Assembly: GCA_020832405.1 (NCBI GenBank)
Contig: JAFIET010000018.1
Span: forward strand, 1-50,009
Reading direction: 5' to 3'
Source: Balneolales bacterium
GTDB lineage: Bacteria; Bacteroidota; Rhodothermia; Balneolales; Cyclonatronaceae
Length of the DNA: 50,009 bases
The position numbers were made by a program, and so were the translations under genes. The notes beneath the pieces were generated by a model, which was given only the letters and a program-made list of their open reading frames with translations, had not been told where the DNA came from and searched no databases. Below are positions 843-19,639 of this stretch, piece by piece; positions within the stretch are counted from its first letter, which is position 1, and every line of letters starts with the position of its first letter.

Positions 843-3422
843 TTATTTGACTAACATCATTTTTCTGATTAGCGAGGCGTTTCCGGTAGTTAACCGATAA
901 AGATATACTCCACTTGATAAATGTGAACCATCAAAATTTACAGTATGAGTTCCTGGGCTTCTGTATTCGTTTACCAAAACAGCTACCCGCTGTCCTGCTA
1001 TATTATAAACTTCGAGTTTAGCGAATGAAGCCTCAGACAGTTCATATCTGATTACAGTATTGGGATTAAACGGATTAGGATAATTTTGAAATAATTCAAA
1101 CCCAACAACTATGTTGTCGTTCTGCCCAATAGAAGTAAAGTTGCCTGCATTGTAAAGTGCGAAAAAAGGAGATGTTCTATTTCCTGCCCTTAGAAAACCA
1201 CCGCCAACATAAAGCTCAGTGCCAACAAGCATTAAGGCATTGGCTCCGCCACCAATACCGTCGCCTAAAGGGTGCCAGGTATCTTCCTGAATATCATAGC
1301 GGGCAATTCCACTGGCATTATTTCCACCCGCCTGTGTGAAACCGCCCCCTGCGAAAAGGTTGTTTCCAACAATAGCCAGCGAAGCTACCCTGCCGTTGGT
1401 ACCGTTTTGTAGCGGGTGCCATGAATCCTGTGTGATGTTATAGCGAACAATTCTTCGTGCATCCAGCCCGTCAGCCTCAAAGAAATCTCCCCCTATATAA
1501 ACATCAGAGCCTTTAACTGCAATAGCTCTGACCGAAGCATCTGTCCCTTGACCGACTGCACTCCACGTATCACTACTTATTGTATAGCGGGCAATTCTAT
1601 TAGCTTCAATACCGTCAACAAGAGTAAAGTTTCCACCTACATAAAGGTCTCCGCTTACTTCTTTTATTGAGAAAACAAAACTGTTCACGCCACTACCCAA
1701 TGTGTGCCAAGTATCCGAACCGATATCATAGCGGGCAATTCTGTTCACCTCAACTCCATTAATTTGGGTAAAGCTTCCGCCTACATATAATGAGTTTCCC
1801 ACAATTTTCATGGCCAGCACGTTGCCGTTGATTTGCTCAACCATGGGGTGCCAGCTGTTAGCACCAATATCATATCGTGCTATCCTGGCGATGGGCTGCC
1901 CGTCAACCTGAAAAAAGTTGCCCCCAACAAACAGGTTATCACCACTCTTTTCAAGTGCTTCCACCGGGCCCAGCAAATTTCCGCCTAATGATTCCCATGT
2001 TCTGTTAACAGTATCGAAACGGGCAATTCGACCAAGTTTTGTGTTTCCGAGCTGATTGAAATCCCCTCCGACGTATATAAAGTTGCCGGAACGAATCATA
2101 TCGTTTACCAAACCATCAAGTCCGTCACCCATCACGTCGGGTTCACCTGTAACTAAATCATACTTAAAGATTCTGTTTGCGTTAAGGTCATTCAATTCCG
2201 TGAATGCACCGGCAACAATTAAAGTATTATCAATTATAAATAGCTCAGAAACAATACCATCCGCTATTGAAGCAAGAGCAGACCACTCTTCAGTAGTTAC
2301 ATTAAATTTTGCCAGTCTGCTTATACTGCCGCCGCCGGCCTCTGTAAAGAATCCACCCACATAAAGGTTGTCATTATCATATAACAACTTTCTTACAACA
2401 TCATTTACCCCGTCTCCTAGTGCATGCCATGTTTCGCTGGTTAAATCAAAACGTGCAATGTGATTAGCAGCCACACCACCGGCTTGAGAAAAAGATCCTC
2501 CAATAAACAGATCATCATTTTCGCTGATCGAAATCGAAAAGATATCGTCGTTCGCGCCTGACCCAAGAGAACTCCACGTTTCATTCACCGGATCAAATAC
2601 GGCTATCCGGTTTGCCTCTGATCCGCCAGCTTCGGTAAAATACCCTGCTACATACAATTTGTTGTTGTGAAATTTAAGCTGACGAACTTCATCATTAAGC
2701 CCTTCACCTAAAGACACAAAATCATCCGAATCAAGGTTATACCTGGCTACTCTTGATGCCATTGTGGCTCCGGCTTGCGTAAATCTCCCTCCTATATAAA
2801 CATCATCACCATCAACTATAATGGAGTTAACCATGTTAGACGCTCCATTACCGCCTATTGAGCTTGTGCGTAACCGATGCCATGTATCGTTAGTAATATT
2901 ATACCGCGCTATGTTTCGCACACCAACTCCACCCGCATTTTCAAAACTCCCGCCTATATACAGGTTATCACCGCTTATTGCCATCGTAGTACCTACTGCG
3001 GGAAACAATCCTGAACCAACTGCGTGCCATGTACCATTGGTTACATTATAACGGGCTATACCGTTTGCATCAACACCTCCGGCATTTGAAAAAGAACCTG
3101 CGATGTAGATATCGTCTTCATAAGCTACTACAGCATTAACCCAAAAATTAGCACCAGGAAAAAACGATTCTAATAACCAATCTTCATTTGCAAGAATATC
3201 TGTATCAGAATTTAATACAACAGATTGCCCGCCGTCATTCGTATTTACACTAAACGGATACAATTCATTTACAGGCTGTTCATTTTCTGTTTGTATCAAA
3301 AATTCATTAAGACTGTATGATTTATTCTGTTCAGTTTCGGGGTTCATCTGAACCTTGGCCGTTAGCTCCGCTGTAATAAAGAAGAGCATCGATAACATTA
3401 ATGAAGGGCAGAGTACTTTCAT
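843..3422 (-). CDS. Secreted double beta-propeller protein with T9SS sorting domain
   Basis: This 859-aa protein begins with a signal peptide (hydrophobic LMLSMLFFITAEL). From about residue 92 to 778 it contains 14 repeats of about 49 residues, each of the form LYVGGxFTxAGGxxANRIARYDxxxxTWHxLGxG. Fourteen units could fold as two seven-bladed propellers. Residues from about 780 form the C-terminal sorting domain of the type IX secretion system: FELFQNYPNPFNPNT near its start, GQRVAVLV in the middle and a final KMMLVK. The protein is therefore expected to cross the outer membrane through T9SS and be released or anchored at the surface. Ligand and enzymatic activity are not visible; no catalytic motif was recognised. 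It is monocistronic, with a terminator 125 nt downstream and an AT-rich 300-nt leader. Confidence 0.9.
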   Translation of the reverse strand: MKVLCPSLMLSMLFFITAELTAKVQMNPETEQNKSYSLNEFLIQTENEQPVNELYPFSVNTNDGGQSVVLNSDTDILANEDWLLESFFPGANFWVNAVVAYEDDIYIAGSFSNAGGVDANGIARYNVTNGTWHAVGSGLFPAVGTTMAISGDNLYIGGSFENAGGVGVRNIARYNITNDTWHRLRTSSIGGNGASNMVNSIIVDGDDVYIGGRFTQAGATMASRVARYNLDSDDFVSLGEGLNDEVRQLKFHNNKLYVAGYFTEAGGSEANRIAVFDPVNETWSSLGSGANDDIFSISISENDDLFIGGSFSQAGGVAANHIARFDLTSETWHALGDGVNDVVRKLLYDNDNLYVGGFFTEAGGGSISRLAKFNVTTEEWSALASIADGIVSELFIIDNTLIVAGAFTELNDLNANRIFKYDLVTGEPDVMGDGLDGLVNDMIRSGNFIYVGGDFNQLGNTKLGRIARFDTVNRTWESLGGNLLGPVEALEKSGDNLFVGGNFFQVDGQPIARIARYDIGANSWHPMVEQINGNVLAMKIVGNSLYVGGSFTQINGVEVNRIARYDIGSDTWHTLGSGVNSFVFSIKEVSGDLYVGGNFTLVDGIEANRIARYTISSDTWSAVGQGTDASVRAIAVKGSDVYIGGDFFEADGLDARRIVRYNITQDSWHPLQNGTNGRVASLAIVGNNLFAGGGFTQAGGNNASGIARYDIQEDTWHPLGDGIGGGANALMLVGTELYVGGGFLRAGNRTSPFFALYNAGNFTSIGQNDNIVVGFELFQNYPNPFNPNTVIRYELSEASFAKLEVYNIAGQRVAVLVNEYRSPGTHTVNFDGSHLSSGVYLYRLTTGNASLIRKMMLVK

Positions 3423-3722
3423 AACAAGTAGTAGTTTGTTTAGTTTAATTTTAGCCGGTATTTTTTATTTTACTGGAAGTATATTTTGTGCAAACCAAAA
3501 ATGATATATCTTAAAGTTAACAGAACAATAAATAGAAACCGAGCTGTCAAATAAAAAAATATATACTTATGCACAAAATGTTTTCGACATTACTATTTTA
3601 TAATAAAAGCAAATTCAGTTTTACTTTAGAAATAAGGATTAAAGCTGGCTGCAACCAGTGGTTCGAGACAAGCACGTTTGTATATAAACTTTTAATTTCA
3701 GATTCAAAAAATGTGGATTGGG
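3423..3722. other. AT-rich intergenic region, putative promoter region of the propeller gene
   Basis: No gene is seen in these 300 bases. The base composition is much more AT-rich than the flanking genes. Two copies of a 9-mer in opposite orientation, ATTTTGTGC at 3483-3491 and GCACAAAAT at 3571-3579, lie upstream of the minus-strand gene that starts at 3422. No clear match to the group's promoter consensus at correct spacing was found. The FN3 gene ends on its left-reading side at 3723 without an obvious hairpin plus T-run. Confidence 0.5.
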
Positions 3723-5792
3723 TTAACGTGTGCGAATAACTGCCTGCACGGCCCGTGCCTGTCGCGCCTTTCGGCCGGTATGATCAACAGGAAACACACG
3801 GTACCACCCTCCCGGCCCTGCTCCTTCATCTGCAAACCTGCGTTCAGCCGACGAAGCTTCACCAACGAGTTCATATGTGCCTGTGGCAATAGTGGAACGG
3901 TAAATCCGAAATCCGCCGAGCATTTCATTTTCTTCACGGCTTTGCCATGTAATTACTACGGCACCCGCTTCCGCATTAACCACGGCTTGTACATTAAAAG
4001 CCGGCACCGGAGGTGCACTTCTGCGAACCTGCACCATATCGCTGAGCAGAGCGGGAGATTCATTTCCGACTGAATCCACCGCTGTTACTGCATACCGGAA
4101 CTGCACATCTGCAGGTAACTCCTCATCCCGGTAGAACCGGTTACCCCGGTTAGCACTTCTGAGAAGCTGCAGATTCTCCGTTCCCGCTTGTTTTCGGTAC
4201 ACATTGTATGATGTAACCGACTGGGAGGAGGAGGGGCTCCAGCTCACCGAAATCCTGTTGTGATTTCCGGCCTGCGCCCTTACAGAGCCCGGAGGTTCAG
4301 GAGCCGTAAGCACAGGCACCTGAACCCTGGTCTTAGTCGTATCACTTATATTACCGCTTGCACTAATTGCAAGAACGGCATACTCATACGTTACGCCTTC
4401 TTCAAAACCCAGCGTAGAAATCCCCTTGTCTCTGAAACTTATATCCAGGTAGGCCGATTCATTCAGCTGCGTAAAGGCTCTTCCAGAGGGAGGATTAACC
4501 TGTCGTCTCAATATCCGGTAGCTTCTTAAATTGGTTTCGGGGCTTCCGGCTTCCCAGTTTAAAACAATTTGCTCTGTACCCCTGTCAAAAGCGGAGCTGA
4601 GCCCTACAGGTGCCGGAGGCCTCACATAATCCACAATAAGAACATGAGCTGAATTGCTTGGCCCACTTTCATTTCCCAACGTGTCCAAAACCCGTACCTG
4701 GTAACGATACTGAGTACCCGGTATGGTTTCTGTGTCCACAAATGATGTGGCTAACGGGGGAATGAGATCCGTGGTAATTCGTGTAAATACGGTGTCTTGC
4801 GCAGTTGAGCGATATACATGATACCCTGCCACATCAATAGCCGTACTCACGGGCCAGCTGATTTCACTATGAAATCGGGATGTTGCACGCCCACTTACAC
4901 TCGTAACGGGTGGTGGTGGTACATTATCAGCTACCCGAATCCTAACCCTTTCAGAGGGCAGAGAAGATCGCCCGCTGTAATCAATAGCTTCAACCCAGAA
5001 TTCATATTCTGAGCCGGTTTGAGGAACCTGAAACGTTTGCCGGAACGTAGTGGAGGTTGTGCGGAGCTGAAATTGCTGATCGGGTGTAATTACACGATCG
5101 CTGCCTACACGGCTGAAGCGCGGCATGAAGTAAATAACATGCTCTGTACCAGCAGATCCGGGTCGGGGATACTGCCAGTTTAGTGTTATCATGCGGTTCT
5201 GGTTGCTTGCTGTAACACGGGTTGGTGCAGGTGGCGTTACAGGTTCCAGAACAGCTTCGCCGCTGAACGAAACGCCGGTAGGGCGACCCAGGTCATCTGT
5301 AAGTTCAAAGCGGTATTGAACACGCTGGCCCAGTGGGGCGTCATCATCCACAAATAAATAGCCCATCGCCAGGGCCAGATCGGGCATGCTGAACGCAAGA
5401 AGCAGGGATTCGGTGGATGGCGACCTGAGCCTCAGAAAAATAGATTGCGGATCATTTCGGTCAGAGAAGTCGCGCAGCAGATCAAAGCGTCTTCCAAGTT
5501 CCTGCTGAAGCCGCGGTCCGCTCTGTACCGGTAAAACGGGCGATTCCGTTAACTGCTGCCAGGGGCCACCCGCAATGCTGCGAGATACATGATAGCCCTG
5601 TGATAAGGGTATCATCTGGTCATGATAAACGAATGCACGACCGTCACTGCGGGTAACAACCGTGATTTCGGCTGAAGACTGGCCTGATGCCGGTTTTACC
5701 GGCATCAGCATAAAAGGCAAGAGCACCAGATATAGAGAAATGCGACTTATCATTGTATTTGAGCTATAATTAAATCCTGAGTTTACCATCAT
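3723..5792 (-). CDS. Exported fibronectin type III repeat protein
   Basis: This is a 689-aa protein with a signal peptide (SLYLVLLPFMLMPVKPASG). The ATG at 5753 would place the signal peptide directly at the N-terminus, so the true start may be there rather than at 5792. After an N-terminal region of about 190 residues come five fibronectin-III-like units. Each has PPxPxxVxA or similar at its start, a central W (ITLNWQYP, SEISWPVS, IVLNWEAG, ISVSWSPS, VVITWQSR), and a YxYxVxAxDxxGNES-type end. Such domains mediate extracellular protein or glycan contacts. There is no T9SS sorting tail; it ends in AVIRTR. It is the third gene of an apparent operon, 20 nt after the giant gene, which itself carries FN3/Ig-like units, so it probably works with the giant protein. 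Partner and ligand are unknown. Confidence 0.8.
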   Translation of the reverse strand: MMVNSGFNYSSNTMISRISLYLVLLPFMLMPVKPASGQSSAEITVVTRSDGRAFVYHDQMIPLSQGYHVSRSIAGGPWQQLTESPVLPVQSGPRLQQELGRRFDLLRDFSDRNDPQSIFLRLRSPSTESLLLAFSMPDLALAMGYLFVDDDAPLGQRVQYRFELTDDLGRPTGVSFSGEAVLEPVTPPAPTRVTASNQNRMITLNWQYPRPGSAGTEHVIYFMPRFSRVGSDRVITPDQQFQLRTTSTTFRQTFQVPQTGSEYEFWVEAIDYSGRSSLPSERVRIRVADNVPPPPVTSVSGRATSRFHSEISWPVSTAIDVAGYHVYRSTAQDTVFTRITTDLIPPLATSFVDTETIPGTQYRYQVRVLDTLGNESGPSNSAHVLIVDYVRPPAPVGLSSAFDRGTEQIVLNWEAGSPETNLRSYRILRRQVNPPSGRAFTQLNESAYLDISFRDKGISTLGFEEGVTYEYAVLAISASGNISDTTKTRVQVPVLTAPEPPGSVRAQAGNHNRISVSWSPSSSQSVTSYNVYRKQAGTENLQLLRSANRGNRFYRDEELPADVQFRYAVTAVDSVGNESPALLSDMVQVRRSAPPVPAFNVQAVVNAEAGAVVITWQSREENEMLGGFRIYRSTIATGTYELVGEASSAERRFADEGAGPGGWYRVFPVDHTGRKARQARAVQAVIRTR

Positions 5793-5812
5793 AAAACCAT
5801 CTCACTCACGGG

Positions 5813-8800
5813 TTACCACGGGATCCCAAGGTTTAAGTCGGGTATTACCTGTCCCGGGAAAGTTATTGGTGTAAACAGGTGCGATTCAGTAACTGCGCGG
5901 GTAATTACCCGCGTTAGTCCTGCACCGTTTTTTATCACAATTCTAACCCTCAGCCCTACAGGGTCGAGATCATCAGCCAGTGCCGGCGACTCTGCCTGAA
6001 GGTTGAAGCTTCCGTGCCTTACCCCCTGCTGATGGGTATGCATAGGTGTTGAGCTGATGTGCTGATTAAATGGGTTTGCAGGAAAGCCTGAGACCGAGTA
6101 ATGAACCGTTAAGATACCGGACTCCGGATCCTCAATGTTATCTGCATTGATTGTAAACCTGCGTGTTTGTGTATTAAACGAAACAGATACCTGCGGCATA
6201 AGCGGAATCGTGGTATCCAGGTTTATGGGGCCGGTTTCGTGAATGGCTGAGGTGAGACCTTTTGTATTAACAGAGCGATACTGCACATACAGGTTTTCGC
6301 CAACCGGCAGCCCGGCTCTCGGTATATCAAAATACCGGTTAGGGGCATTGTGTCCACCCTGAAGAAGGCGGGTTGTCTGTTGCAGGTTCCATACAAAATC
6401 GACTTCGCCCGCCGGTGGGAAGGCACGGACTGTAATCGGCTGACCACCGTCATACCAGATTACACTGTACTGTATGCCGGTAATATCCGACTCAGGGTCA
6501 TACGGCACATGCGTGATGTAAAGCCTGATGTTGTCGGGTTCAAGCCTGGCCGGAAGACGACCTGCAACCGGCAAGGTATGATCTACAGAAGTAAACGGCC
6601 CGAACGTGGCAATTTCACCACGGTTACCGGCACGGTCAACGGCACGGATGTGCAGCCACACTTCTCGTGTAAAGTTGTCAAAAACAGGATCGTCTGTACC
6701 GCCGGTGATTTCCATTGTGGATTGCTGCGCTTCGTGGAAAACAGCTTCTCCACCTGCAAACCGGTTGCCCGGCACCGATTCATCCCGACTGAGAAGGTAT
6801 TCATACCCGGCGATTCCGGACTGAGAATCCTCAGCCTGTAAGTTGTTAAACCGCAGGGTAGGGTTACCGTAAACTGCTCTGATTGGGTTCGCAAGGTGGC
6901 CCTGATTTTGCTCAAGGGGCGGCACAGCGGTTACGGCCGGTACACCCACGGGCCATTGTGACGGCGGTTGAATCGTGTGCTGACCGATATGCTGAAGCTC
7001 CGGCAGGCCCGGCTCGCTCTGATCGAGCTGAAGCGGATCGGGATGCTCCCGGGCCGGGCTGACCTGCCCCATGGTATTGGTAACCCGTACACTGAAATAA
7101 TAGGGAACACCTTCTTCAAGATTCAGAAATACGGTAGTTCCTCTGATCTGCTGAGCTGGGATTCCCGCAAGAAACTGCCGTTCCCCCTGAAGCACACGCC
7201 AGTCACTAACATCGGTGCCTCCGGATGTTGTACCTATGGCGTATTCGTACGAAGCAATCCCCACCTCTGCATCGTAACCATTAATTACAATTGGCAGTGG
7301 CCCACCCTGGTTGGTCCAGTAGGTTCGTTGACCGCTATCTTCAGAGAAATTAAAGGTTTCAGCAAGGATGAGATGCGGCATATCCGGCGGGTTGGTTACA
7401 TCTGGCAGCACTTCAGTACCGCCAGGGGTTGTTTCGCCGCCGGGACCTACATCAACTTTGAAAGATGCACGTCTGAAAGCAGTGTTACCTGCCGGACCTC
7501 TCACACGAATTCCAACATTCACATTGCGGTCATTCAGAACGATCCTGCCAGGATACAGGCGTAGAGATGAATTATTACCAATTGAAATATAATCATCAAT
7601 ACCAACTTCTATGTTCGTGCTTCCACTCTGCCATGTGTAGTTGTATGTAACAGCATTCTCAACAACTTCGACAGGATGTGTGGCGGTCCACTGAATATGT
7701 GTTTGATTAAAGTAGTGATTATGTCCCCGCTGCGGATTCACTACCATAGAGGTAATGACCGGAGGCATGAGCTGATTACTCAGCTGCTGAAGCTGGTCTT
7801 CAAACTCCTGCAGCGGGGGAGCGTCCGTAAAAGCGGTAGCACCTCCTTCGCCTTCTGCAGCCTGCCGCCATTCCACATAGTTATCAGTAAGATTCCAAAG
7901 GAGGGATGTCATATTTGACTTAATGCCATAGAACCGTTCCATCACTTCTGTTAGCTGCCTTGCTGGTGCAAATATATTCTCGCGGTCGGCTTCTACAGAA
8001 AGCACAACGTTTTCCACAAGATTCGTGAATTGATTTTGATAATATCTCTCAAGACCCAACTGATGCATATCTAGCCAAAAGCCTGTGTTATGCCCGTTAA
8101 TTAGCTGTGCACGTTGGGTAGCGGAGACACCTGTAGTTACAGAAAGCTGGTCATATATTTCACCGGCACTTGAATTAGCTATTGCTGGCATATTACTTAG
8201 GTTGGTAACATTATCCTCAATAAGGTTTACAGCTTGGACCCGCCGGGCTATTCGCATTGCTTCATTGTTAAGGTTAACGTTAGCATTTCCGGGGTTTCCC
8301 ATTGCTGTAGCATACCCATTATTTAGTGCAGCTATTGCAGAGCTGATTGCACCGGAGCGTGAGTTAATGTCATTACGGAGAGCCTGCGCCCATTCCATAT
8401 TTGTCCATCGGTAATGTGAGTGACTTGCGTAGTAGCGCTCAAAATTGTTGATAAGTGTACTGTAAGAACCCATTAGCGAATTCAACGACTGAGGGTATTC
8501 TGTTCCAAAATGAAGCAGGTCGTTCATTGCTTCGAGGTTAGCCGCTACCGAAGAAATGCTTTCCCGGAATGCAGACTCGAGCTGAGAAAGATCACTACGC
8601 AGGTTCGTAGCCGCAGAGGCCTGATCGGCTGCAACGTCGTCATCTACAGCAAAACTCACCGAACTCGTGGCATTTTGAGAGGGCCGCACCCGCTGAATGG
8701 AACCCACAGGGGATTGCAGAAACTGCTGTGACATTTGTTCAAACTGAAGTTCAGCATCTTCAAGTAACTCAATGGCAACACCCAAATCTGATGATATCTG

Positions 8801-11800
8801 ATTTCGCATTGCGTTAAAGTCCTGTACATCAACCTCATAGAACTTTTCCAGCGCTGAACGATTACTGGTTATACTCCACATTGGGTTTATAAACCCCGGG
8901 TTGGTTCGAACGACCTGGTTCAGTAAGTCATTCAGTGCCGGTGGCAGGTTGTAGGGATTTCCGCCGGTTAAATGGTTGGATTCAAAGCCCTGAATCAGAT
9001 TCACCCAGTTATCCCGATCGTCGTAACTCATGCTGTAAAGATTGAAACCAGCAAGCCTGTAGCTATCTTCAGAGGGAAATAATTCGTCAATAGGAGTGAG
9101 TTCTACTTCATTCATGGCATTATCAATAGCAGCAACGAGATTGTTTATTTCATCTTCAAACTGCTGCTTTTGATCCCGGGCCTGCGCAATAAGATCATTG
9201 TTACCGGACGATCCCAAGCCTGCGGTAAAATTACCGTCATATACAGAAGCCCATGCTGCCAGACACCTGTTATCGCCGCTGCCCGCACAAGCTTCAACTG
9301 CCGCAAAAAGCTCATACCCTGAGGGGTTTCGGGTTACAAAAGCACCTTTAGCGGTAGCCGTTGCGCAGAAAATGGCCAAACAGGCACTGGCTTCGAATTC
9401 AGCATAGGCGCCAAACGGCATACTATAACTACCAGAGGTCATTAACCAGATACTTGCTTCAATGTCACCATTAACCTGTATAACAGGTACTGGCACATCT
9501 ATCCCCAAACCGACCACAACCAGGAAACCCGGAGGTCCGATAAGCAGCTCACCCCGGCCTGTGAGGATGCTGTATGCGGTAAAGTCGGCATTGCCAATAA
9601 TGCCCCAAACAGGGTTTCCATCGCCCTGATTAACATAAAAATATTCAATTTCTCCGCTACCGGTAAGCACTGCCGGAACTTCAACATTTACATCAATTCC
9701 AATGTTTATAGCGCTCACACTCCCGTCATTGGCGCGATTTACAGACGCATATAAGCTTGCCCTTGCATCCATATTGGCGATCGTATCAAATTTTTCACTA
9801 TCCATTTCCAGGATATAGGCACGGGAATCTATATAAAAAGCATTGTTCGTAATCTGAAGAAAGGTTGTTCCTTCAAGAATGTACGCACCGGGCGGGCCAA
9901 AGCCCACACCTGCATACAGCATAACAGCAAACCCGGTATCGCCCTTGATAGTCGCTGCATCCTCATTAACGAGTTCATGTCCCATTGCAGCAATTCCGCC
10001 ATACACCATTGCAAGGTCGTCAGTGTTGGGTCGGTAGAAGAAGCCCCCTCCGGCTCCTGTTAAATTCAGAACACCCGGTATAATCGGAATCCCTGCATCC
10101 GACTGAGCTGCCACAAACAAGCCGTACCTGAGCTCATTGTTCAGGTTGGAAAATAAGCCTGCTACCACTGCGGAAACACTCTGCCCCCCCGCCGTAAAGC
10201 TGCCCGCAGCGGCAGCGCGAATCAGCACATTTCCGTCTTCCTGCACATAATTAAAATGTGCCTGCATGCTAAAAAAAGTATCAATGGAAGCATGCAGGTT
10301 TTCAATCGTGATGGAACGGTTTCCGCTCAGGGTTTGGTAGAAAAATATTTTATCCACACCTCCTGAAAAACCTGCGTCACTATTGCTTTCTGCTCCGCTA
10401 ATACTAACTGAAACGGCAGGTAAATCCGACCCCTGATTACCATCTATATTACAAGTTCCAAAGCAAAACACTTCAGTAACTCCGGGGATCGTTCGCGTTG
10501 GTTCATTTTCCAGTTCCTTAGGATCCTTAGCATCCGTATTCGCAACGGTCATATCGAAACCGTTTTCATTCCTGTGGTGCATAAATGAACCCACAGTCAA
10601 AGCAAACATATCGGCAATATCTATTGTACCACCTGAACGATCGATATTGCCCCAATCCCGAACACCTTCCGTACCAATCACGATACCTGTATAACCCAGA
10701 TCAGCCTCAACCCTTTCCAGGTTTATATTCGCTCTGCCTGCAAGCTGGATTTCGAAAGCCTGCGTATCTGAGGCAGCCATATCTGCCATTATTGCTACCC
10801 TGAAGAAACTGAAATCCCGTTCAAAAGCATAGCTGCCGGTTACGTTATAGAATAAATCAACTCCGCCTGCAGCGTTGCGGGCTATACCAATTCCGGGTTC
10901 AGCCACTATGTCTCTTCCGAAATTGATTACGTCTTTCATCCCATCACCCTGTTCATCCGGAATTCGAACAACTGCGTTTGCAAAAAGGCCCGGTTCTGTC
11001 GGATTAAAGGGGTCAAGAGCAATTCGGACCTGCGTTAGAGAAATCTCTCCAAAGTCACCCAGATCAAAGGTGCCATTATCACCTGAAGGTGTTAGAACCA
11101 GCCCTGAGCTGTTCGTGGAAATGTTACCATCGTTATCGCGGTAAATTTCGAGTAAAATGCCTGTGTCTTCTACATAATCAGAGAGTGGTTCAGGCAAAAG
11201 AAAAGCTAATTGGGTATTCAGGCGGAGGCCATCTTCAACTTCCAGAACAACAGACTTCAGCATTACATAGTCAGGAATTATGGGTACATCTTCAGCTGAA
11301 ATCTGATTGATGCTAAAACCCCCGTCAGTAGATAAACTCAGGCCCTGAAACTCGATTTCCTGGTCGAGAAAGCCCATCTTACCGTCCGAGCTGATGGTTA
11401 TCTGCCGCCCTGAAAGTACAATTGCAGGCCCTGTCATTGTGATCGACAAAGCACCTTCAAAAAGTTCAAATGACTGTTCACCAAGTTCTCCGGTGGCTTC
11501 TCCAAGGGCAAGGTGCAGCTGCGGGTTCGGACCAATGTTTTTTACCCCGACTTCAAGATCCTTAATGGTAACGAGAACAGGATCCTTCAGGACTTCCTCA
11601 AAAGACACGGAACCGTTAAGGCTCAAAATGAATGCATCTTCGTCGTATTGTACACGGACGGGCTCGTGCTCATCCAGTGAAATTACGGTGGAACCGAAGC
11701 GCATGTCCTGAAGCAGACTGCCGGGATCAGCGTTTATGTTCCACCCTTCAGAACCCCATGCAGCCATAAAAAACACAGGTGCATCTCCGGCCTCCATCAA

Positions 11801-14800
11801 CAGAGAACTGAAGAGTGTAGCAGAAAATGCCACGCTGTTGCTTTCACCAAAAGCAGCCTCTATCCCCAGCAATGAAGCAGTAAAGGAATCTTCTGCTTGT
11901 GCGTCGTCCACATTTCCGGTGTGGCTAAAGGTATAAAGCGGCTCAGGCACATCGTTAGGATTGTACTCAGTACGGTGGTCGCCGGCAGTAAATGTTGCTG
12001 CTTTAATGCCAGATTTTGTGAGCGTTGCCATTAACATGGCTTCGGAGCCCTCAAAAATAGCGGGGAGGTCAAACGCCAGACCGGCTGTTAAGCTTACTCC
12101 GTCTGTTACGTCAATCTCAAGCAAAGCCAGCCGAACCGGAAGGTTTAAACGATCTTCCAGACGCTGCTCGGTATCGAGGCTAAGGCTTCCGCCGGTTACA
12201 TTCCAGGTGTTATCGGTAGTAATACTAAAACTAACCATTACTACGAGCGTGTCTCCATCGCTGGCTGTTAAAGCCGGAATTACCAGGGGCAGGCTTGCTC
12301 CGCCAGTGGAGAGCTGATACCCGGAATCAAGCTCATCGACCGTTATGAGCGTATTTCCGTCATCATCTTTGATATCTATGTAAGCAATATCTTCAGACGG
12401 AAGCGGAATGCGGTCGGGCAGGAGCGCTATAAGCCCACTGCCCAGGGTAAACCCGTTAACATCAAGAACTGCAATCGGCTCCTGAGCAGGCACTCCGTCC
12501 TGATCCCAATAAAAGAGTGCCCTGCCTGCGGTAACTGCAAAACCAGTGATGCTCATAGCAAAGTTATCTTCAACCACTACCCGCAGATTTGAATAACTCT
12601 CCCCTTCATACTGAAGCAGAGCGTCGGCCGCACCATCAAAACCCAGGCCGTTGGCACCAATCGAAACACTTGCCTGCGTATTGATGCGAAGCAGATTGGT
12701 ATCGGGTAAAGGGCTACCAGGAGCCATTAACGAGAGAGACAGCGGGTTCAGGCCAATATCAAGGGTCAGGCCGCCGGTAAGTTCTGCACTGCCCCCAAGA
12801 ATTTCAAACTCCGAAAGGGCAATCTGCAGGTCGTTAAAGTTTAGTTCCGCATCCAGTTCATCCCGAAGCAGGCTTCCGCTACCGGAAAGGGTAATGCCTT
12901 CTTCATTGAGCAGGGCCTGATTGATACTGAGGTTAAACAGAGGGTCATCCCGATTCCACGGCACAGGAAGTTCAAAAGGTTCATTAATTGCAATCGATCC
13001 TCCGCTTATTTCACCGGTAAGCAGGTTCAGGCTCAGCGCACCGGTTACAGATATTGTACTGCCTTCCTGTGGGCCGGGGAGTTCTGCCGTAACAGCTCCG
13101 TCGAGTTCAGCCACCTGCGACTCCGCACCTGCAAAGACATATAAATCAGCTTCAGTCACTTGCAGTGATATCGGCCCGAGGGGCAAACTACCACAGGGCT
13201 GCACCCCTGAAATGGTACCTTCCAGGGCGTTTCCGCCTGTGAGGGCAAGAGTAAACCCGGGGCCATCCGGGCAGTCAGCGCTGTTTTCACCGGAGAATAC
13301 AGGCAGCTGATCCAATCTGCCTGCCATAAAAACTTCAGCTACCTGTGTGAAACTGTTACCTTCCACAATTCTGAGGGCACCCGAAATTTCCTCTACAACC
13401 AGTTGAGGGGCATCTGCTCCTGAACCCAGCGGTACAAGGGCCCCGCCATTGGGATAGAAAATGTCAAGTTCGCCGGTGAGCATTCCGTTCTGGTAACCAA
13501 CCCCTGTAAATAGCAGCCCATCGGGTGGGTTGAGGCTTGTATTACTAAGAAAATCAGGGAGATTGAGGCGGAAATCCATATTGATGGCGCCAATGTTGAA
13601 GGCCGCGCCATCCTCCCAGCTAAAAGTGAAGCCCTCGGGAATGTTGAGCGCAAGCGGGGTAAACTCAAAGTCGGCCAGTGAAAATGACGGAAGGCTGAGA
13701 CCGGGAATTTCTGCTTCATTAATATTTTGAGTCGGGAAGCGTATTCCGTTATTCCGGATTTCAATCCCGCGAAGGGGGAAGTAGATTTCATCCCCCGCGT
13801 CGAGGGGAATTCTAAGGCCTGCATCGATTGCGATGGCAAAAGTGAGCCCTGTAGTGTTGTCATAGCTGAACTCCGGGATGTTTGCGATCCCGTCAAATTC
13901 AAGCCCGAAATCACCGATACTAATTAGGGGAGATTCGTCGATAGCATAGCTTTCAAAAGCACTGATGCCGAAATACCCCCCCGTGGCTGTTGTAAGCGTT
14001 AGTCCGGCGCCCGCGCGGTAGCCCTGATCGGTAAGTACTTCTACATCACCGGTTACCGAAAAATTATAATCGGGAGAGGTACTGTTAACGGGCATGGCAA
14101 ACATGCCGCTAATCTCATCTACGCCGAGCTTTACGCGATCATTAAACAAGGCCAGATTTGCATTCATGCCGGTTGCCTGCACATTGGCCCGAACAAACCC
14201 GTCGCCCTGTAAATAAAATGAAACTTCTTGTGTGCCCTCTAAGATCTGATCAAACAAATTCAGGTTTCCAGCTAAAAACAGGGCTGTTACCGCACCCGAA
14301 GGGGTCTGTTCCAGGCCGAAGCGTACCGTTTTAAGGGATAAGGGAATGTTTCGGTTCTGCAAACCGGGGAAGCTCAATCCCTCAGGTATTTCGGCAACGA
14401 TGCTTCCGCTAACAACTTCCGGATTGGAAGGATTTAAACTTAGGGTAAAGTTTTCGAAGCTAACTTCGGTGAGTACCGGCGGGTTTGCTGCATCAAGGTA
14501 AGGCACCACAAGCTGAAGCGGGGTACCAGCAAGGCTTGTTAATACAATGTGTCCGTCGTCGTTTTGGCTCACATTTACAAAGTAATTGTCCTCGTCGCGA
14601 AGCTGAATATAGGCTATGTCTTCGCTGGGCAGCGGCAAACGCTCCGGGATCAGGTGATCCGCAAAAAAGCCCCAGTCGGGATGAAAGCCACCCTCATCGA
14701 CCCAGGCAATTCGGCTTCCTTCGTAAAAGAACTGAGCCTCCCCGCTGCTCACCCGTACCGGGTAAAGCCCGATGGCAAAATCTTCCGAGAATTCCACAGT

Positions 14801-17800
14801 CAGCACCTCATCAAACTGCGTTCCATCGAATGAGAGAGAGGCACCAGCAATACCGGATGTGCGCAGACCGGATGAATCGGCTATTACCGTGGCACCGAGT
14901 TGCATCTTAAGGCCTGTTTCAAGCAGCAGTGGCTGATCCGGTGGGATGGCTGCAAAGGCGAGTCCGCTTAAATCTGTGCCAATGCCAATCTCAAAAGCGA
15001 AGGTTTCATCAAAAATGATTTGCCCTTCCCGAATACGCCAGGTTTCAAAATCGAGCAGCAGGTTATCGAAGGTTACCTGGCGCATTTCATCGCCCAAGCG
15101 GAAACCCTGCCGGCCGTTTACGCGAAAGCCCTCAGAGCTGAGGTGTGCTGCATCCAGGCGAAAAGTGAGCACCGGATCAGTATCATTAGGGATGTTCCAG
15201 TCGAACGGTCCTTCAATTTCAAAACTAATATCGGAGAAAGTACCGGCTATAAGATCAGCACTAAAAGAGCCTGATGCTGTACCGCCATCAGGCAAGCCCA
15301 GGTTAGCAGCTGCTTCAAGAACCGCCTGCTGAGGAGCTCCCGGATCTTTGATAAAAGTGATCTTACTGGTGTTCATTTGCGCCGTAAACGGGCCCAGTTC
15401 TACTTCACAATTTGGCACAATTTCATCGAGTACACCGTTGATGCCATCAGAAAGAAGCAGGTCTTCCCCGGAAAAGGTTATCGCATTGTTACTGTCACAG
15501 CTGAAAGGTCCGTCGAATGAAATGCCACCGTCGATCTGCAATGCACCAAAAGGCTCTATGCCATCATCCGGCAGAAAGCGAACACCCGCAGAACCTGCCA
15601 TCCCATCGAGGTTAATAGTAACAAACGGCCCGGGTTGCCATTCACACCCCTCAAAATCATCAAGGCCAAGATCGGCACGAACCATATTGGTTTCGGCACG
15701 TCCGTTGGTAACGGCGAGTGTTGTACCGAGTAAACAATAGGGAAGGTTTTGTATCTCACGAATGGAAGCACGGCCTTCAAATGCTAAAGCCCATGGCCCG
15801 GGGCCATCACCATCCCAATTAAACAGCGGGAATGTAAATTCTTCAATTTCGAAGCGATCAAGCGAAACACGGAGCATCTCTAAATCGAACTCGGGCAGCG
15901 GATTTACGCCATCCCCAAAATCAAGGGCTGCAAAACGGATACCATCGCGGTTAACCGTCAATTCACGGATTATTGCAGATTGCCAGCTGCCAAATGCGGG
16001 AACATCGAGGCGGGCATCAAGCATAAGTTCAAAATCCCAGTCTCCGGAGTCAGGCCTGTATTCAAGTTGGGTGATGCTCGTATTGGAAAACGCGAGCCGG
16101 GCAAATCCCAAATCAATTTTGGGATTTGCTACGTTGCAGCTTGGTGATGTAAGCTGAAGACTCATACCCTCTTCGCTATCCAGGTTTATGTTTACACCGC
16201 TGCCGCAGTAGCTGCCATCTAAAGTCAGCAGGCCGATCGTGCTGTTCAGTGAGAGGTCGTAGTCCATACTTCCGTCTTCCACATCGAGCAGCACACTTCC
16301 TGAAACCTGCTGTACCTCTGCCGAAATAAGTGCACTGCCTTCAAGTAGTGGTAACTGAAACCTATCGGGGCACAGGAAACTGGCCGTGACGGCTGTATCA
16401 ATAGTTTCAAAATTGGTGAGCTGACAGCCGCTTTCACGACCAAGGAAGCGTATATCTCCGGTCGCATTCATTTGAGCCTGTGGAAAATCGACGCGAATGG
16501 AGTTTAGGTAAGCCTCAACCAGTTCTTCCTGAAAAGCCACAAGCGGACTGCCAGAAACCTGTACAAAGCCCCCAATACCGGACCTGCTGATCTGCAAACG
16601 ACCTTCAGCGGAGCTTATGCCGCCAAATGGCAGCACGAGGCTGGCCGATGCTGTGAACCCGGAACCCAATTCCCATTCCACGGATTCGAAATTAATGAAG
16701 TCCGGAAGCTGATTTGCAAAAAGTGATTGCGTTGCTTCGGCAGCAACGGTAACCCGCCCGCCGGTAACAACCGGATTGTTCATGTTGGATTTCAGAATCG
16801 TGAGATTCTGTACAATAGCTTCAACAGTGGCCTCCCGGCCGTCATCGAGTGTAAAGCCGACCACTGCACGACCATTAAACGTGTAGAATGTCGGACTTTC
16901 ATCCACCTCCAGTCCCTTAAGGTCTGAGAGCTCCGCAAACATGGGAATCAGTGTAATCTTTTCCAGATCCGGGAGGGAGCCATCTGAATCATCACCTCTG
17001 CGATAACTGAAGGTATAAATCTCACTTTCTCCGTCTTGAGCAAACGGGTAAACCCCGTTAACGTCACTTGCTGTTACCTGCCAGGCATAGGTTTTTCCCT
17101 CCTCAAGGGGATTCAGATCGGGAGTATAGGGGAAGGTAGTATTCTGAATCAGGATTTCGCGGTGATGCGTCCGGTTGCTAAGCAGAGCGTCACCTGGGTT
17201 TTGGCCTTCGAAAAGTTCAACCATTACAAATTCATATTCGACCGTTACATCGCCGGGAACTACTACCGGGGACCATGAGAACAAGGGGATACTCATGGGA
17301 AGATCAACGTTGTTTGGCGGTGTGATGAGTACCGGTGGCTGCGGAAAACGAACCACAAAAACGGCCGGTATGGCATTGACACTCACGGCTGGCTGCATTT
17401 GAACCGGCCGGGGGGCTATTCGCAGCTGATAGTTGCCTTCGGGCAGAGCACCCGACTGGATCAGCTGGTCGCGAACCCGCCTTGGTAATGACTCCACTAT
17501 ATCATCGAAATCAATATCAAAGGAAACATTATCAAAAAAATCGAAGTAGGAACTGAACCCTGGCTGGATCATGTATGGGTCTGAACTTATGTTCAGGATT
17601 CTTTGTCCGTTTAAGGTAAGTTCAAGATCAAAAATAAATTCCCTTTCTATATCACTTCCCTCATAGGTAATGTTGACCAGATACTGCCCTGTGTTATAGT
17701 TATTCTCAATATCATTGACAAATGGTGCGTTCAGAACGCCCTGCAGGCCAACAATCTGAACACTCACGGTTTCAAACTGACGGGCAGAAGCATCACCGGG

Positions 17801-17866
17801 CAGGTGGAGCATAATTGTAATAGCAAGGGCTGCAATAAAGCCTGATTTGGTAAGAAAGTGTATCAT
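5813..17866 (-). CDS. Giant exported multidomain protein (4017 aa), TANFOR-like N-terminus
   Basis: The signal peptide is at residues 1-28. Residues about 30-310 have the look of the TANFOR-type N-terminal region: LPEGNYQLRIAP, then PPVLITPPNNVDLP, then an FSWSP to EEGKTYAWQVTASD unit. Residues about 320-2890 are almost entirely short beta-strand and turn sequence rich in G, D, N and S. They include two aligned modules about 745 residues apart (landmarks W890/W1637 and LPSEDIAYI at 1079/1822). Scattered Cys occur in pairs, as in exported proteins. Residues about 2895-3370 are alpha-helical and Q/N/E-rich, and residues about 3370-4017 are Ig/FN3-like (YYFSVRVTNTMGQ, HIRAVDRAGNRG). No T9SS tail, enzyme motif or membrane anchor was recognised. 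It lies 18 nt after the barrel gene and 20 nt before the FN3 gene. The function is unknown. A surface scaffold or adhesin, or a long beta-groove, are both possible. Confidence 0.8.
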   Translation of the reverse strand: MIHFLTKSGFIAALAITIMLHLPGDASARQFETVSVQIVGLQGVLNAPFVNDIENNYNTGQYLVNITYEGSDIEREFIFDLELTLNGQRILNISSDPYMIQPGFSSYFDFFDNVSFDIDFDDIVESLPRRVRDQLIQSGALPEGNYQLRIAPRPVQMQPAVSVNAIPAVFVVRFPQPPVLITPPNNVDLPMSIPLFSWSPVVVPGDVTVEYEFVMVELFEGQNPGDALLSNRTHHREILIQNTTFPYTPDLNPLEEGKTYAWQVTASDVNGVYPFAQDGESEIYTFSYRRGDDSDGSLPDLEKITLIPMFAELSDLKGLEVDESPTFYTFNGRAVVGFTLDDGREATVEAIVQNLTILKSNMNNPVVTGGRVTVAAEATQSLFANQLPDFINFESVEWELGSGFTASASLVLPFGGISSAEGRLQISRSGIGGFVQVSGSPLVAFQEELVEAYLNSIRVDFPQAQMNATGDIRFLGRESGCQLTNFETIDTAVTASFLCPDRFQLPLLEGSALISAEVQQVSGSVLLDVEDGSMDYDLSLNSTIGLLTLDGSYCGSGVNINLDSEEGMSLQLTSPSCNVANPKIDLGFARLAFSNTSITQLEYRPDSGDWDFELMLDARLDVPAFGSWQSAIIRELTVNRDGIRFAALDFGDGVNPLPEFDLEMLRVSLDRFEIEEFTFPLFNWDGDGPGPWALAFEGRASIREIQNLPYCLLGTTLAVTNGRAETNMVRADLGLDDFEGCEWQPGPFVTINLDGMAGSAGVRFLPDDGIEPFGALQIDGGISFDGPFSCDSNNAITFSGEDLLLSDGINGVLDEIVPNCEVELGPFTAQMNTSKITFIKDPGAPQQAVLEAAANLGLPDGGTASGSFSADLIAGTFSDISFEIEGPFDWNIPNDTDPVLTFRLDAAHLSSEGFRVNGRQGFRLGDEMRQVTFDNLLLDFETWRIREGQIIFDETFAFEIGIGTDLSGLAFAAIPPDQPLLLETGLKMQLGATVIADSSGLRTSGIAGASLSFDGTQFDEVLTVEFSEDFAIGLYPVRVSSGEAQFFYEGSRIAWVDEGGFHPDWGFFADHLIPERLPLPSEDIAYIQLRDEDNYFVNVSQNDDGHIVLTSLAGTPLQLVVPYLDAANPPVLTEVSFENFTLSLNPSNPEVVSGSIVAEIPEGLSFPGLQNRNIPLSLKTVRFGLEQTPSGAVTALFLAGNLNLFDQILEGTQEVSFYLQGDGFVRANVQATGMNANLALFNDRVKLGVDEISGMFAMPVNSTSPDYNFSVTGDVEVLTDQGYRAGAGLTLTTATGGYFGISAFESYAIDESPLISIGDFGLEFDGIANIPEFSYDNTTGLTFAIAIDAGLRIPLDAGDEIYFPLRGIEIRNNGIRFPTQNINEAEIPGLSLPSFSLADFEFTPLALNIPEGFTFSWEDGAAFNIGAINMDFRLNLPDFLSNTSLNPPDGLLFTGVGYQNGMLTGELDIFYPNGGALVPLGSGADAPQLVVEEISGALRIVEGNSFTQVAEVFMAGRLDQLPVFSGENSADCPDGPGFTLALTGGNALEGTISGVQPCGSLPLGPISLQVTEADLYVFAGAESQVAELDGAVTAELPGPQEGSTISVTGALSLNLLTGEISGGSIAINEPFELPVPWNRDDPLFNLSINQALLNEEGITLSGSGSLLRDELDAELNFNDLQIALSEFEILGGSAELTGGLTLDIGLNPLSLSLMAPGSPLPDTNLLRINTQASVSIGANGLGFDGAADALLQYEGESYSNLRVVVEDNFAMSITGFAVTAGRALFYWDQDGVPAQEPIAVLDVNGFTLGSGLIALLPDRIPLPSEDIAYIDIKDDDGNTLITVDELDSGYQLSTGGASLPLVIPALTASDGDTLVVMVSFSITTDNTWNVTGGSLSLDTEQRLEDRLNLPVRLALLEIDVTDGVSLTAGLAFDLPAIFEGSEAMLMATLTKSGIKAATFTAGDHRTEYNPNDVPEPLYTFSHTGNVDDAQAEDSFTASLLGIEAAFGESNSVAFSATLFSSLLMEAGDAPVFFMAAWGSEGWNINADPGSLLQDMRFGSTVISLDEHEPVRVQYDEDAFILSLNGSVSFEEVLKDPVLVTIKDLEVGVKNIGPNPQLHLALGEATGELGEQSFELFEGALSITMTGPAIVLSGRQITISSDGKMGFLDQEIEFQGLSLSTDGGFSINQISAEDVPIIPDYVMLKSVVLEVEDGLRLNTQLAFLLPEPLSDYVEDTGILLEIYRDNDGNISTNSSGLVLTPSGDNGTFDLGDFGEISLTQVRIALDPFNPTEPGLFANAVVRIPDEQGDGMKDVINFGRDIVAEPGIGIARNAAGGVDLFYNVTGSYAFERDFSFFRVAIMADMAASDTQAFEIQLAGRANINLERVEADLGYTGIVIGTEGVRDWGNIDRSGGTIDIADMFALTVGSFMHHRNENGFDMTVANTDAKDPKELENEPTRTIPGVTEVFCFGTCNIDGNQGSDLPAVSVSISGAESNSDAGFSGGVDKIFFYQTLSGNRSITIENLHASIDTFFSMQAHFNYVQEDGNVLIRAAAAGSFTAGGQSVSAVVAGLFSNLNNELRYGLFVAAQSDAGIPIIPGVLNLTGAGGGFFYRPNTDDLAMVYGGIAAMGHELVNEDAATIKGDTGFAVMLYAGVGFGPPGAYILEGTTFLQITNNAFYIDSRAYILEMDSEKFDTIANMDARASLYASVNRANDGSVSAINIGIDVNVEVPAVLTGSGEIEYFYVNQGDGNPVWGIIGNADFTAYSILTGRGELLIGPPGFLVVVGLGIDVPVPVIQVNGDIEASIWLMTSGSYSMPFGAYAEFEASACLAIFCATATAKGAFVTRNPSGYELFAAVEACAGSGDNRCLAAWASVYDGNFTAGLGSSGNNDLIAQARDQKQQFEDEINNLVAAIDNAMNEVELTPIDELFPSEDSYRLAGFNLYSMSYDDRDNWVNLIQGFESNHLTGGNPYNLPPALNDLLNQVVRTNPGFINPMWSITSNRSALEKFYEVDVQDFNAMRNQISSDLGVAIELLEDAELQFEQMSQQFLQSPVGSIQRVRPSQNATSSVSFAVDDDVAADQASAATNLRSDLSQLESAFRESISSVAANLEAMNDLLHFGTEYPQSLNSLMGSYSTLINNFERYYASHSHYRWTNMEWAQALRNDINSRSGAISSAIAALNNGYATAMGNPGNANVNLNNEAMRIARRVQAVNLIEDNVTNLSNMPAIANSSAGEIYDQLSVTTGVSATQRAQLINGHNTGFWLDMHQLGLERYYQNQFTNLVENVVLSVEADRENIFAPARQLTEVMERFYGIKSNMTSLLWNLTDNYVEWRQAAEGEGGATAFTDAPPLQEFEDQLQQLSNQLMPPVITSMVVNPQRGHNHYFNQTHIQWTATHPVEVVENAVTYNYTWQSGSTNIEVGIDDYISIGNNSSLRLYPGRIVLNDRNVNVGIRVRGPAGNTAFRRASFKVDVGPGGETTPGGTEVLPDVTNPPDMPHLILAETFNFSEDSGQRTYWTNQGGPLPIVINGYDAEVGIASYEYAIGTTSGGTDVSDWRVLQGERQFLAGIPAQQIRGTTVFLNLEEGVPYYFSVRVTNTMGQVSPAREHPDPLQLDQSEPGLPELQHIGQHTIQPPSQWPVGVPAVTAVPPLEQNQGHLANPIRAVYGNPTLRFNNLQAEDSQSGIAGYEYLLSRDESVPGNRFAGGEAVFHEAQQSTMEITGGTDDPVFDNFTREVWLHIRAVDRAGNRGEIATFGPFTSVDHTLPVAGRLPARLEPDNIRLYITHVPYDPESDITGIQYSVIWYDGGQPITVRAFPPAGEVDFVWNLQQTTRLLQGGHNAPNRYFDIPRAGLPVGENLYVQYRSVNTKGLTSAIHETGPINLDTTIPLMPQVSVSFNTQTRRFTINADNIEDPESGILTVHYSVSGFPANPFNQHISSTPMHTHQQGVRHGSFNLQAESPALADDLDPVGLRVRIVIKNGAGLTRVITRAVTESHLFTPITFPGQVIPDLNLGIPW
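12257..13186 (-). repeat. Giant protein, tandem module copy 2 (core, about residues 1560-1870)
   Basis: Counterparts of copy 1 in order: PLGPISLQ, STISVTGALSLNLLTGEIS, PVPWNRDDP (W1637), NLRVVVEDNFAMSITGF, ALFYWDQ, RIPLPSEDIAYIDI (L1822) and LPLVIPAL. The offset is 747 residues at the Trp and 743 at the LPSEDIAYI motif, so the spacing inside the module is nearly conserved. Confidence 0.7.
14477..15424 (-). repeat. Giant protein, tandem module copy 1 (core, about residues 815-1130)
   Basis: Copy 1 runs in order: ELGPFTAQ, a GGTASGSFSADLIAGTFSD segment, FDWNIPNDTDP (W890), EVLTVEFSEDFAIGLYPV, AQFFYEG, RLPLPSEDIAYIQL (L1079) and LQLVVPYL. Every landmark has a counterpart in the same order in copy 2, about 745 residues further on. 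Sequence identity is modest, so the duplication is old. Confidence 0.7.
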
Positions 17867-17884
17867 GATAATTGGCCGTTTGGG

Positions 17885-19639
17885 TTAAAAGCGCTGATCA
17901 ATTGATAACCGAAGTTCAAATTCCCGGAAACCGGCACCTGTGCCTTCGAGAAGAGCGTTAGTGATGGTTCGGGCGTTTAGCCGGATGGTATTGGTTGTAG
18001 TTGTGCGGAAGGTTGCTGTGAAATTACCGGTAAGCTGCTGCTGAGCCCGGCGAATGGTTTGCTCATTGAAATTCGATTCGTTTTCAGTTCTCGAAAAACC
18101 GGCATTCAGATTGAGATTAAGCCGGCGGCTGAACAGCGAATGCCCGCCCCCCACATTGATGCCGTAAACACTGAAAGTCGTGTTTCGGGAGTCACCGCGG
18201 GCAAAATTGAAATTTGTATTAAAATTTAAGCCACTGAAAAAGGACATATTATAGGCAGATGCCGCCGTGAATGAGGTACTGTTCATATCCATATCAGACT
18301 GATCTATGTTAACATCAAGCAGCTGATAATTACCGCTCACGGAGATGCTGTTCGTGGTGCGGTCACCCATCCAGGTAAAAACGGGCTGCAGGTTAATGCT
18401 TTGCGAAACGATGGTTTGTTCGGGGTAATTGATCTCCGATTCAGAAGTAGCTGCCGATTCTACTTTGTTTTGAAAACGATTATATCCCATTCCAAGACTA
18501 AACTGATTGGTAAGCTGTGTTTGGATATTCAGTCCCAAATCCTGCCTGCGCTGTGTAGATACCCTTTGATCCAGCAAATTATCACGCCCAAAGCGAGTGG
18601 TTACTGCAAAGTTCAATCGACCGTTTAGCAGACTCAGGGACGGATCAACACGTATGGTTTGGTCATCATCTTTAATGTTTCTGAGCCCCAACGACCTGAA
18701 TCCGGGCTGAACCCGCTCAAAGCCTACATTTAGTGTTAATGGGTTGAAATTAAATCTGGTGGAGATGTTGGTAGCATAATTAACCCGGGTAGAGCTGCGC
18801 GGTGTGTAGAGGTTGTCAAAGAAATTGGGGAGCCCTATGTCACTTAGCTCAAAAGACTCACTCCGTGTATCCCGTGTGTAAACCGAAACGGTGTTTTGAG
18901 CCTGAAAATGAACCCTGCGGCTGAACAGACTTAACTGGAAATCCGGGCTTAATGTAAGGTTTTCCTGGGGTGCTGGTATGGGGCGGGCTGAACCCTGCCC
19001 ACCGACCGGCTCGCTCAATCCGGTGAGCTCGTCATTATCAACGGCATAAACAATACCAAGGTGAAAATGCGAACCACGCTCAGCCCCAAAACCAAGGCGG
19101 GCTCCGTACAGCCATCGCTCGTATGCCGGTTGCCGGAATCGCTCCGATTCCGAATTTGTGACCCTGCGGTTTACTTGCCCTGCTGTAAATTGCGCCCTGA
19201 ATGAACCCGGATTTAGTTCAATATGACCACCCCTAACCCTTGTACCACGCAAGCTGTAGGGGTTAAAAACCGGACTCACATCCCCTGCACTTACCTGTAA
19301 CCAGCGCCACCCGGCCTGGAAATTAAACTGATTCATGTTTTGCTGAAACCGGGACTGATCCGTTGAATACCGCATATCGAAACTGGAGCGAAACCCTAAA
19401 ACCGAAAAGTTGATATTTGCCGTAGCGACCCCCCCAAAAGGCTCACGCAGATTATTGTCCCTGCTTGTGCTGTAGGAATGTGTCTGAAGACCAATGTTCC
19501 CGCTGAACGTGTACAGTTGGATATCCGTGTCTCCGATGGTTTGTCTCGCTTCGGCAGTAAAGGCAAGGACAAAAAGGCAGCAGAGTAAATATAGTCCTCT
19601 GCTGTAGTAACTTTTATTGGGCTTAGGGCAGCATTTCAT
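17885..19639 (-). CDS. Outer-membrane beta-barrel protein
   Basis: This 584-aa protein has a signal peptide (LYLLCCLFVLAFTAEA) directly followed by alternating-polarity strands with short turns through the whole length, for example FNFQAGWRWLQVSAGDVSP and LNLNLNAGFSRTEN. It ends in FELRLSIDQRF, a C-terminal aromatic typical of BAM-inserted barrels. No POTRA, plug or TonB box is apparent, so it is neither a TamA/BamA type nor a TonB receptor. The segment VSAGDVSPVFNPYSLRGTRVRGG after the first strands is distinctive and may be a periplasmic or pore-lining loop. It is the first gene of the unit that continues with the 4017-aa protein 18 nt later, suggesting it is a conduit or membrane anchor for that protein. 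This role is inference. Confidence 0.75.
   Translation of the reverse strand: MKCCPKPNKSYYSRGLYLLCCLFVLAFTAEARQTIGDTDIQLYTFSGNIGLQTHSYSTSRDNNLREPFGGVATANINFSVLGFRSSFDMRYSTDQSRFQQNMNQFNFQAGWRWLQVSAGDVSPVFNPYSLRGTRVRGGHIELNPGSFRAQFTAGQVNRRVTNSESERFRQPAYERWLYGARLGFGAERGSHFHLGIVYAVDNDELTGLSEPVGGQGSARPIPAPQENLTLSPDFQLSLFSRRVHFQAQNTVSVYTRDTRSESFELSDIGLPNFFDNLYTPRSSTRVNYATNISTRFNFNPLTLNVGFERVQPGFRSLGLRNIKDDDQTIRVDPSLSLLNGRLNFAVTTRFGRDNLLDQRVSTQRRQDLGLNIQTQLTNQFSLGMGYNRFQNKVESAATSESEINYPEQTIVSQSINLQPVFTWMGDRTTNSISVSGNYQLLDVNIDQSDMDMNSTSFTAASAYNMSFFSGLNFNTNFNFARGDSRNTTFSVYGINVGGGHSLFSRRLNLNLNAGFSRTENESNFNEQTIRRAQQQLTGNFTATFRTTTTNTIRLNARTITNALLEGTGAGFREFELRLSIDQRF

Follow-up and report, generated by a model that had tools for sequence, protein, structure and literature searches.

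Background

As described in the results, the discussion and some of the methods of one study (Jana, Salomon, Bosis 2020, PMC7073777), TANFOR proteins are polymorphic toxins of Bacteroidetes in which TANFOR is the lead domain, and genes for FN3 proteins and for cargo of the type IX secretion system (T9SS) are enriched near theirs. In these parts of the study the export route of the toxins is left unknown, the T9SS is proposed for it, and a barrel partner is not mentioned. Here we describe a locus on a 50,009-nt stretch (the window) of contig JAFIET010000018.1 from a Balneolales bacterium (GCA_020832405.1), where an outer-membrane beta-barrel protein, a giant beta-rich protein and an FN3 protein are encoded side by side. 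This trio is a real, phylum-wide module of the Bacteroidota. With the TANFOR toxins of the sections cited above it shares the phylum, an exported giant, a homologous N-terminal domain and nearby FN3-encoding and T9SS-cargo genes (PMC7073777). The toxins carry a variable C-terminal toxin and a neighbouring immunity gene, whereas the giant of the window has a constant C-terminus, and neither element was found.

Two-partner secretion (TpsB/TpsA, CdiB/CdiA) is similar in that a barrel gene directly precedes that of the giant, with a conserved N-terminal lead domain of ~270 aa, a long beta-rich body and, in part of the family, variable toxin tips. The trio differs in lacking POTRA domains, in having 26 predicted strands and not 16, and in its extra FN3 and TPR genes; furthermore, the TPS domain has no Pfam match (E ≤ 1) in the giant, whose N-terminus is modelled as two immunoglobulin (Ig)/FN3-type domains. 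Because POTRA and TPS domains are absent, membership in the two-partner secretion family is excluded. What the trio appears to share with it, by analogy, is a logic whereby a barrel recognises a lead domain and a long body is displayed, with an optional toxin at the far end.

Within the Bacteroidota, SprB and SprF (a T9SS type B cargo with a SprF/PorP shuttle) likewise combine a giant surface protein with a barrel of its own. The giant of the trio lacks their C-terminal domain (CTD), its barrel is different and much larger, the FN3 gene is conserved and, unlike SprB/SprF, the barrel gene in this lineage mostly comes before that of the giant. MtrB, LptD and the FimD/PapC ushers are barrels of 24–26 strands which enclose or pass a large partner, whereas the trio has no sequence match to them and no haem proteins, usher plug or chaperone domains. 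TamA/TamB also couples a barrel to a long beta-rich protein; the trio differs in strand number and in having no POTRA or TamB match.

Distribution and conservation of the module

Profile searches were made in a sample of 394 Bacteroidota genomes. The counts of barrels and TANFOR-like domains are lower bounds, as scoring covered the best candidates of each genome and many loci are interrupted by contig ends. Scanning the genome contigs with the giant alone gave zero matches, and its alignment held no stretch that was conserved enough; the barrel alignment worked. Matches to the barrel profile were obtained in 101 genomes (E ≤ 1e-10); a profile built from the N-terminal 330 residues of the giant gave 107 (E ≤ 1e-6). 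Among the stronger matches listed, the barrel occurs in 86 genomes, the N-terminal domain in 87 and both in 85, leaving one barrel-only and two domain-only genomes. The co-occurrence has a Fisher p of about 4e-83, uncorrected for relatedness. Proximity follows the same trend: among the matches listed, 109 of the 136 TANFOR-like domains lie within 15 kb of a same-strand barrel (63 of them within 600 nt), and 103 of the 118 barrels have a TANFOR-like domain within 15 kb.

An earlier note on this stretch had proposed that the three genes form a unit with the barrel as its likely outer-membrane partner, had suggested a gene-neighbourhood search across Bacteroidota, and had held that giants regularly found without the barrel and FN3 genes would speak against a unit. 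The cluster recurs in many genomes in variable order, and of the 87 genomes that carry the giant's N-terminal domain, 85 also encode the barrel, which upholds both proposals. Gracilimonas amylolytica and Rhodohalobacter halophilus are among the carriers of the unit. The nearest relatives by barrel identity (57–58%) come from Balneolaceae and other Balneolia metagenome-assembled genomes (MAGs). In relatives from the same taxonomic order the arrangement barrel-giant-FN3 is kept at 25–59% identity, often in multiple paralogous copies per genome, and the FN3 gene adjoins in most loci having enough sequence. The arrangements giant-FN3-barrel, giant-FN3-TPR-barrel and others were also seen, the gene for a TPR protein being a frequent fourth member of related loci. 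Because gene order varies while the cluster persists, the linkage is more than inherited synteny. The source genome itself, a 3.96-Mb draft rich in T9SS cargo (83 sorting-tail matches), has a second barrel-giant pair (barrel 53%, giant 34% identity) on a contig (G000:C29, L039) that terminates before any FN3 gene.

Barrel and giant also agree in their phylogeny. Tree distances for the barrel and the giant N-terminus correlate at r = 0.925 over 63 loci, a value reached by 0 of 2000 permutations, and same-genome paralogues have matching nearest relatives in the two trees, some near-ties excepted. In six loci (L185–L190) a single open reading frame (ORF) of 863–947 aa encodes both an N-terminal TANFOR-like domain and a C-terminal barrel, usually beside separate TANFOR proteins or an FN3 gene. 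Fusion of proteins that are encoded separately in other lineages points to a physical partnership, and we regard partnership of barrel and giant as likely.

Variation among related loci

Several related loci depart from the layout of the window. The second trio loci L045 and L046 (G047, G044) encode short giants of 1,907 and 1,995 aa, which have only the N-terminal region in common with the long type. TANFOR-like giants of ~6,400 aa occur at G088:C39 from 354316 (L201), G167:C91 and G072:C7, with no barrel detected directly adjacent. In Bacteroidales MAGs (L134:11853-14123, L143:1250-2608) the gene after the barrel encodes an FN3 and a Fib_succ_major domain and replaces the TANFOR giant, and at L056:2-3631, L091:3-2777 and L092:17482-19499 the FN3 gene is directly followed by surface proteins with Cadherin/Big_9 repeats. 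The loci L030–L036 hold proteins of ~900–940 aa, one per genome, which weakly match a short stretch of the barrel. In many Balneolaceae loci (L045, L046, L050–L052, L121–L127) two genes lie upstream of the barrel and divergent from it, one for an extracytoplasmic function (ECF) sigma factor (PF07638), the other for a Ser/Thr protein kinase that has TPR repeats; they are possibly a regulator pair.

Predicted structure of the barrel

The AlphaFold2 model of the barrel has 26 strands, the first near residue 43 (predicted local distance difference test (pLDDT) 84.7, predicted TM-score (pTM) 0.71). In every modelled strand, residues alternate between a hydrophobic lipid-facing side and a polar lumen side rich in Asn, Gln, Ser, Thr and Arg. 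The best solved fold is MtrB of the Mtr complex (6r2q_B; VIA Z 20.5, 455 residues aligned, root-mean-square deviation 4.9), the next VIA row having a Z of 17.5 over far fewer residues, and Foldseek likewise placed MtrB first (E 1.1e-10), followed by the FimD and PapC ushers. The barrel has no Pfam match to the MtrB_PioB sequence family and no PDB sequence match, searches of the PDB with single proteins and with profiles giving nothing useful, and the modelled resemblance to MtrB appears to be one of fold only. MtrB forms a sheath of 26 strands that surrounds a folded partner, and its size is comparable to that of LptD and FimD (PMC7198977). Judging by the model, so large a barrel with no obvious plug would presumably depend on a partner that fills or gates its pore. 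The barrel has no Pfam POTRA or ShlB match, as the earlier note had supposed of POTRA, and neither it nor 18 relatives match the PorP/SprF family.

The giant and its TANFOR-like domain

Pfam gives no match to the giant at E ≤ 1, nor does the TANFOR family model TIGR02542 match it. At the curated cut-off of that model (67 bits) there are no matches in the 394 genomes; below it there are 15 places in 12 genomes, all of which carry the barrel, and every one of the 15 falls within a match of the giant's N-terminal profile. The model also matches four of 12 short relatives. By this chain of profiles the N-terminal domain of the giant is a distant TANFOR domain, and the TANFOR-like start read earlier from the sequence was correct, if distant.

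Residues 27–1130 of the giant were modelled with AlphaFold2 (pLDDT 79.7, pTM 0.43), giving more than 60 strands in an uncertain domain arrangement. The model starts with two Ig/FN3-type domains and continues as a meander of long amphipathic strands; matches of the fold search are confined to the N-terminal pair, the meander being barely covered by the search. For the beta-rich body that the earlier note had described, the model bears out these residues, while its helical block is seen by composition only and its Ig-like end in weak matches only (OmpL47-type, E 4e-4). DUF6603 was rejected as a domain of the giant, one relative matching at E 0.007 with no recurrence in the full-length giants scanned (Pfam).

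Identity to full-length, distant relatives is 21–46% per 150-aa bin and about 29–41% over most of the C-terminal 700 aa, with alignment coverage high until the last bin, where it is 55%. No Pfam toxin domain was found in the giant, and a small immunity-like gene was not seen adjacent to it. Because identity is sustained along the chain and a toxin domain was not found, the giant is not filed as a toxin; judged from sequence it looks like a TANFOR-related surface protein of fixed architecture. A related protein of 1,726 aa (L196:7925-13105, G231) is TANFOR-like and ends in a colicin/pyocin-S2 DNase domain (E 7e-42).

Layout of the locus

The three ORFs are uninterrupted and lie on the minus strand, separated by 18 nt (barrel/giant, 17867–17884) and 20 nt (giant/FN3, 5793–5812), in agreement with the spacing first noted. 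That all three products are exported, as had also been claimed, is consistent with their hydrophobic, signal-peptide-like N-termini, which were read from the sequence without a predictor. Pfam and NCBIfam find no T9SS tail on any of the three and match one on the neighbouring cargo, again as first described; this cargo is not conserved as a member of the trio. Four fn3 domains score in the FN3 protein (Pfam). Coordinates are given in Table 1. Between the TPR gene and the barrel, a 311-aa protein (20708–21643, minus strand) has repeated WD/lactonase-like motifs by eye and no Pfam match. No DNA tandem repeats were found in the trio genes, and promoter and terminator scans of the locus gave signals no better than shuffles.

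Table 1 Features of the trio locus, with positions in the window
Feature	Position	Strand	Basis
Outer-membrane beta-barrel protein, 584 aa	17885-19639	minus	Predicted 26-strand barrel (residues 43-583), polar lumen, C-terminal Phe
Giant beta-rich exported protein, 4,017 aa, net charge -335	5813-17866	minus	ORF, composition and partial AlphaFold2 model
TANFOR-like N-terminal region of giant (residues 27-300), a tandem pair of Ig/FN3-type domains and the best conserved portion of the family	16967-17788	minus	Profiles and model
Beta meander of giant, residues 326-1063, long amphipathic strands, no fold assigned	14678-16891	minus	Model
Helix-prone block of giant, about residues 2880-3430	7577-9229	minus	Composition only
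C-terminal Ig-like stretch of giant (residues ~3700-4017), conserved in full-length relatives, toxin domain not found	5813-6766	minus	Weak matches and conservation
FN3-array exported protein, 689 aa, no T9SS tail	3723-5792	minus	ORF and Pfam
TPR protein, 706 aa, recurrent fourth gene beside related trios	21795-23915	minus	Domain scan and neighbourhood
T9SS type-A cargo neighbour, kelch/Rax2-type propeller with Por_Secre_tail	843-3422	minus	Pfam/NCBIfam

Discussion

Given the joint distribution, matching trees and fusions of barrel and giant, we propose, at roughly even chances, that the trio is a single outer-membrane display unit in which the barrel is a dedicated partner that holds, and perhaps exports, TANFOR giants. 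In this view the barrel would serve the giant alone and be a pore-sized protein of 26 strands with no plug. The giant would cross the inner membrane by Sec, as its N-terminus suggests, and its two N-terminal TANFOR-type Ig domains would dock in or under the barrel; the remaining chain would then be held, and probably passed out, through or beside the barrel, to end up on the surface. The FN3 protein may be an accessory subunit of this complex, and the TPR protein probably helps in its assembly. Relatives that bear toxins would use the same N-terminal platform to carry a variable C-terminal toxin, whereas the giant of the window, because its C-terminus is constant, is most likely a surface fibre or adhesin. 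We infer the physical complex, the docking by the TANFOR pair, the surface location and the export through the barrel, the last of these being a possibility. A doubtful proposal, which we make tentatively, is that TANFOR giants and toxins leave by a T9SS-independent outer-membrane route specific to the Bacteroidota, in which the barrel is the export pore and the N-terminal TANFOR pair acts as the export signal.

A number of observations weigh against the display unit. Among the matches listed, 15 of the 118 barrels have no TANFOR-like domain within 15 kb, and the unit is missing from some genomes of the same genus. The FN3 tree distances agree less well (r 0.54–0.55), and the FN3 protein is therefore perhaps less tightly tied to the other two. 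Weak BamA matches (E 1e-5) were obtained for two of 37 barrel relatives. SprA, the T9SS translocon, is present in all 86 barrel genomes of the sample, and T9SS cargo is enriched near TANFOR genes, for which T9SS export is proposed in the sections of PMC7073777 cited above. The last two points favour a reading in which export of the giant is the work of SprA, while the part of the barrel is limited to anchoring or shuttling the giant at the surface, like that of SprF/PorP with type B cargo; SprF-like barrels beside giant adhesins (PMC12618676) are a precedent. We consider this credible, at clearly less than even chances. The type A and type B CTDs are absent from the giant of the window, 12 relatives and 10 further giant C-termini (the latter by Pfam), and the barrel is much larger than SprF. 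Moreover, SprA occurs in 302 of the 394 genomes and the SprA-negatives, among the genomes listed, are nearly all of one family, so its association with the barrel is weak evidence. SprA is found throughout the sampled trio genomes, so the earlier suggestion of a route other than the T9SS may or may not hold.

The three other readings that we weighed concern the role of the unit. A polymorphic-toxin role for the giant itself, with a C-terminal toxin domain that escapes recognition, would fit its place in the TANFOR family by the profile chain, the toxins described in part in PMC7073777 and the relative with a terminal DNase; toxin tips vary, whereas conservation of this giant among distant relatives extends over almost the entire chain, and we think the reading unlikely. 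The TamA/TamB-like lipid conduit or envelope-spanning scaffold that was suggested earlier draws on a barrel adjoining a long beta-rich protein, on the amphipathic strands of the meander and on the BamA matches mentioned above. It fares poorly, and we consider it very improbable: the window proteins have no Pfam match to TamB, AsmA, POTRA or Omp85, the predicted 26-strand barrel has a polar lumen, and the amphipathic strands are no argument for a groove because the N-terminal Ig pair shows them equally. Although MtrB is the best fold match, an extracellular electron conduit like MtrCAB is rejected with next to no doubt, as the CxxCH haem motif is found in none of the three proteins and the barrel lacks an MtrB match in Pfam.

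We found no description of a barrel partner of TANFOR giants in the literature searched (main text of open-licence PMC papers), and the barrel, which appears to be undescribed, is a strong candidate for the protein by which these giants are carried or held at the surface. A conserved barrel beside TANFOR genes, fused to the lead domain in some lineages, points to a specific partner for these toxins. If the barrel exports the giants, this would be an outer-membrane secretion route not described so far in the phylum; if it only anchors them, it would represent a new class of surface platform, present in roughly one in four of the Bacteroidota genomes sampled.

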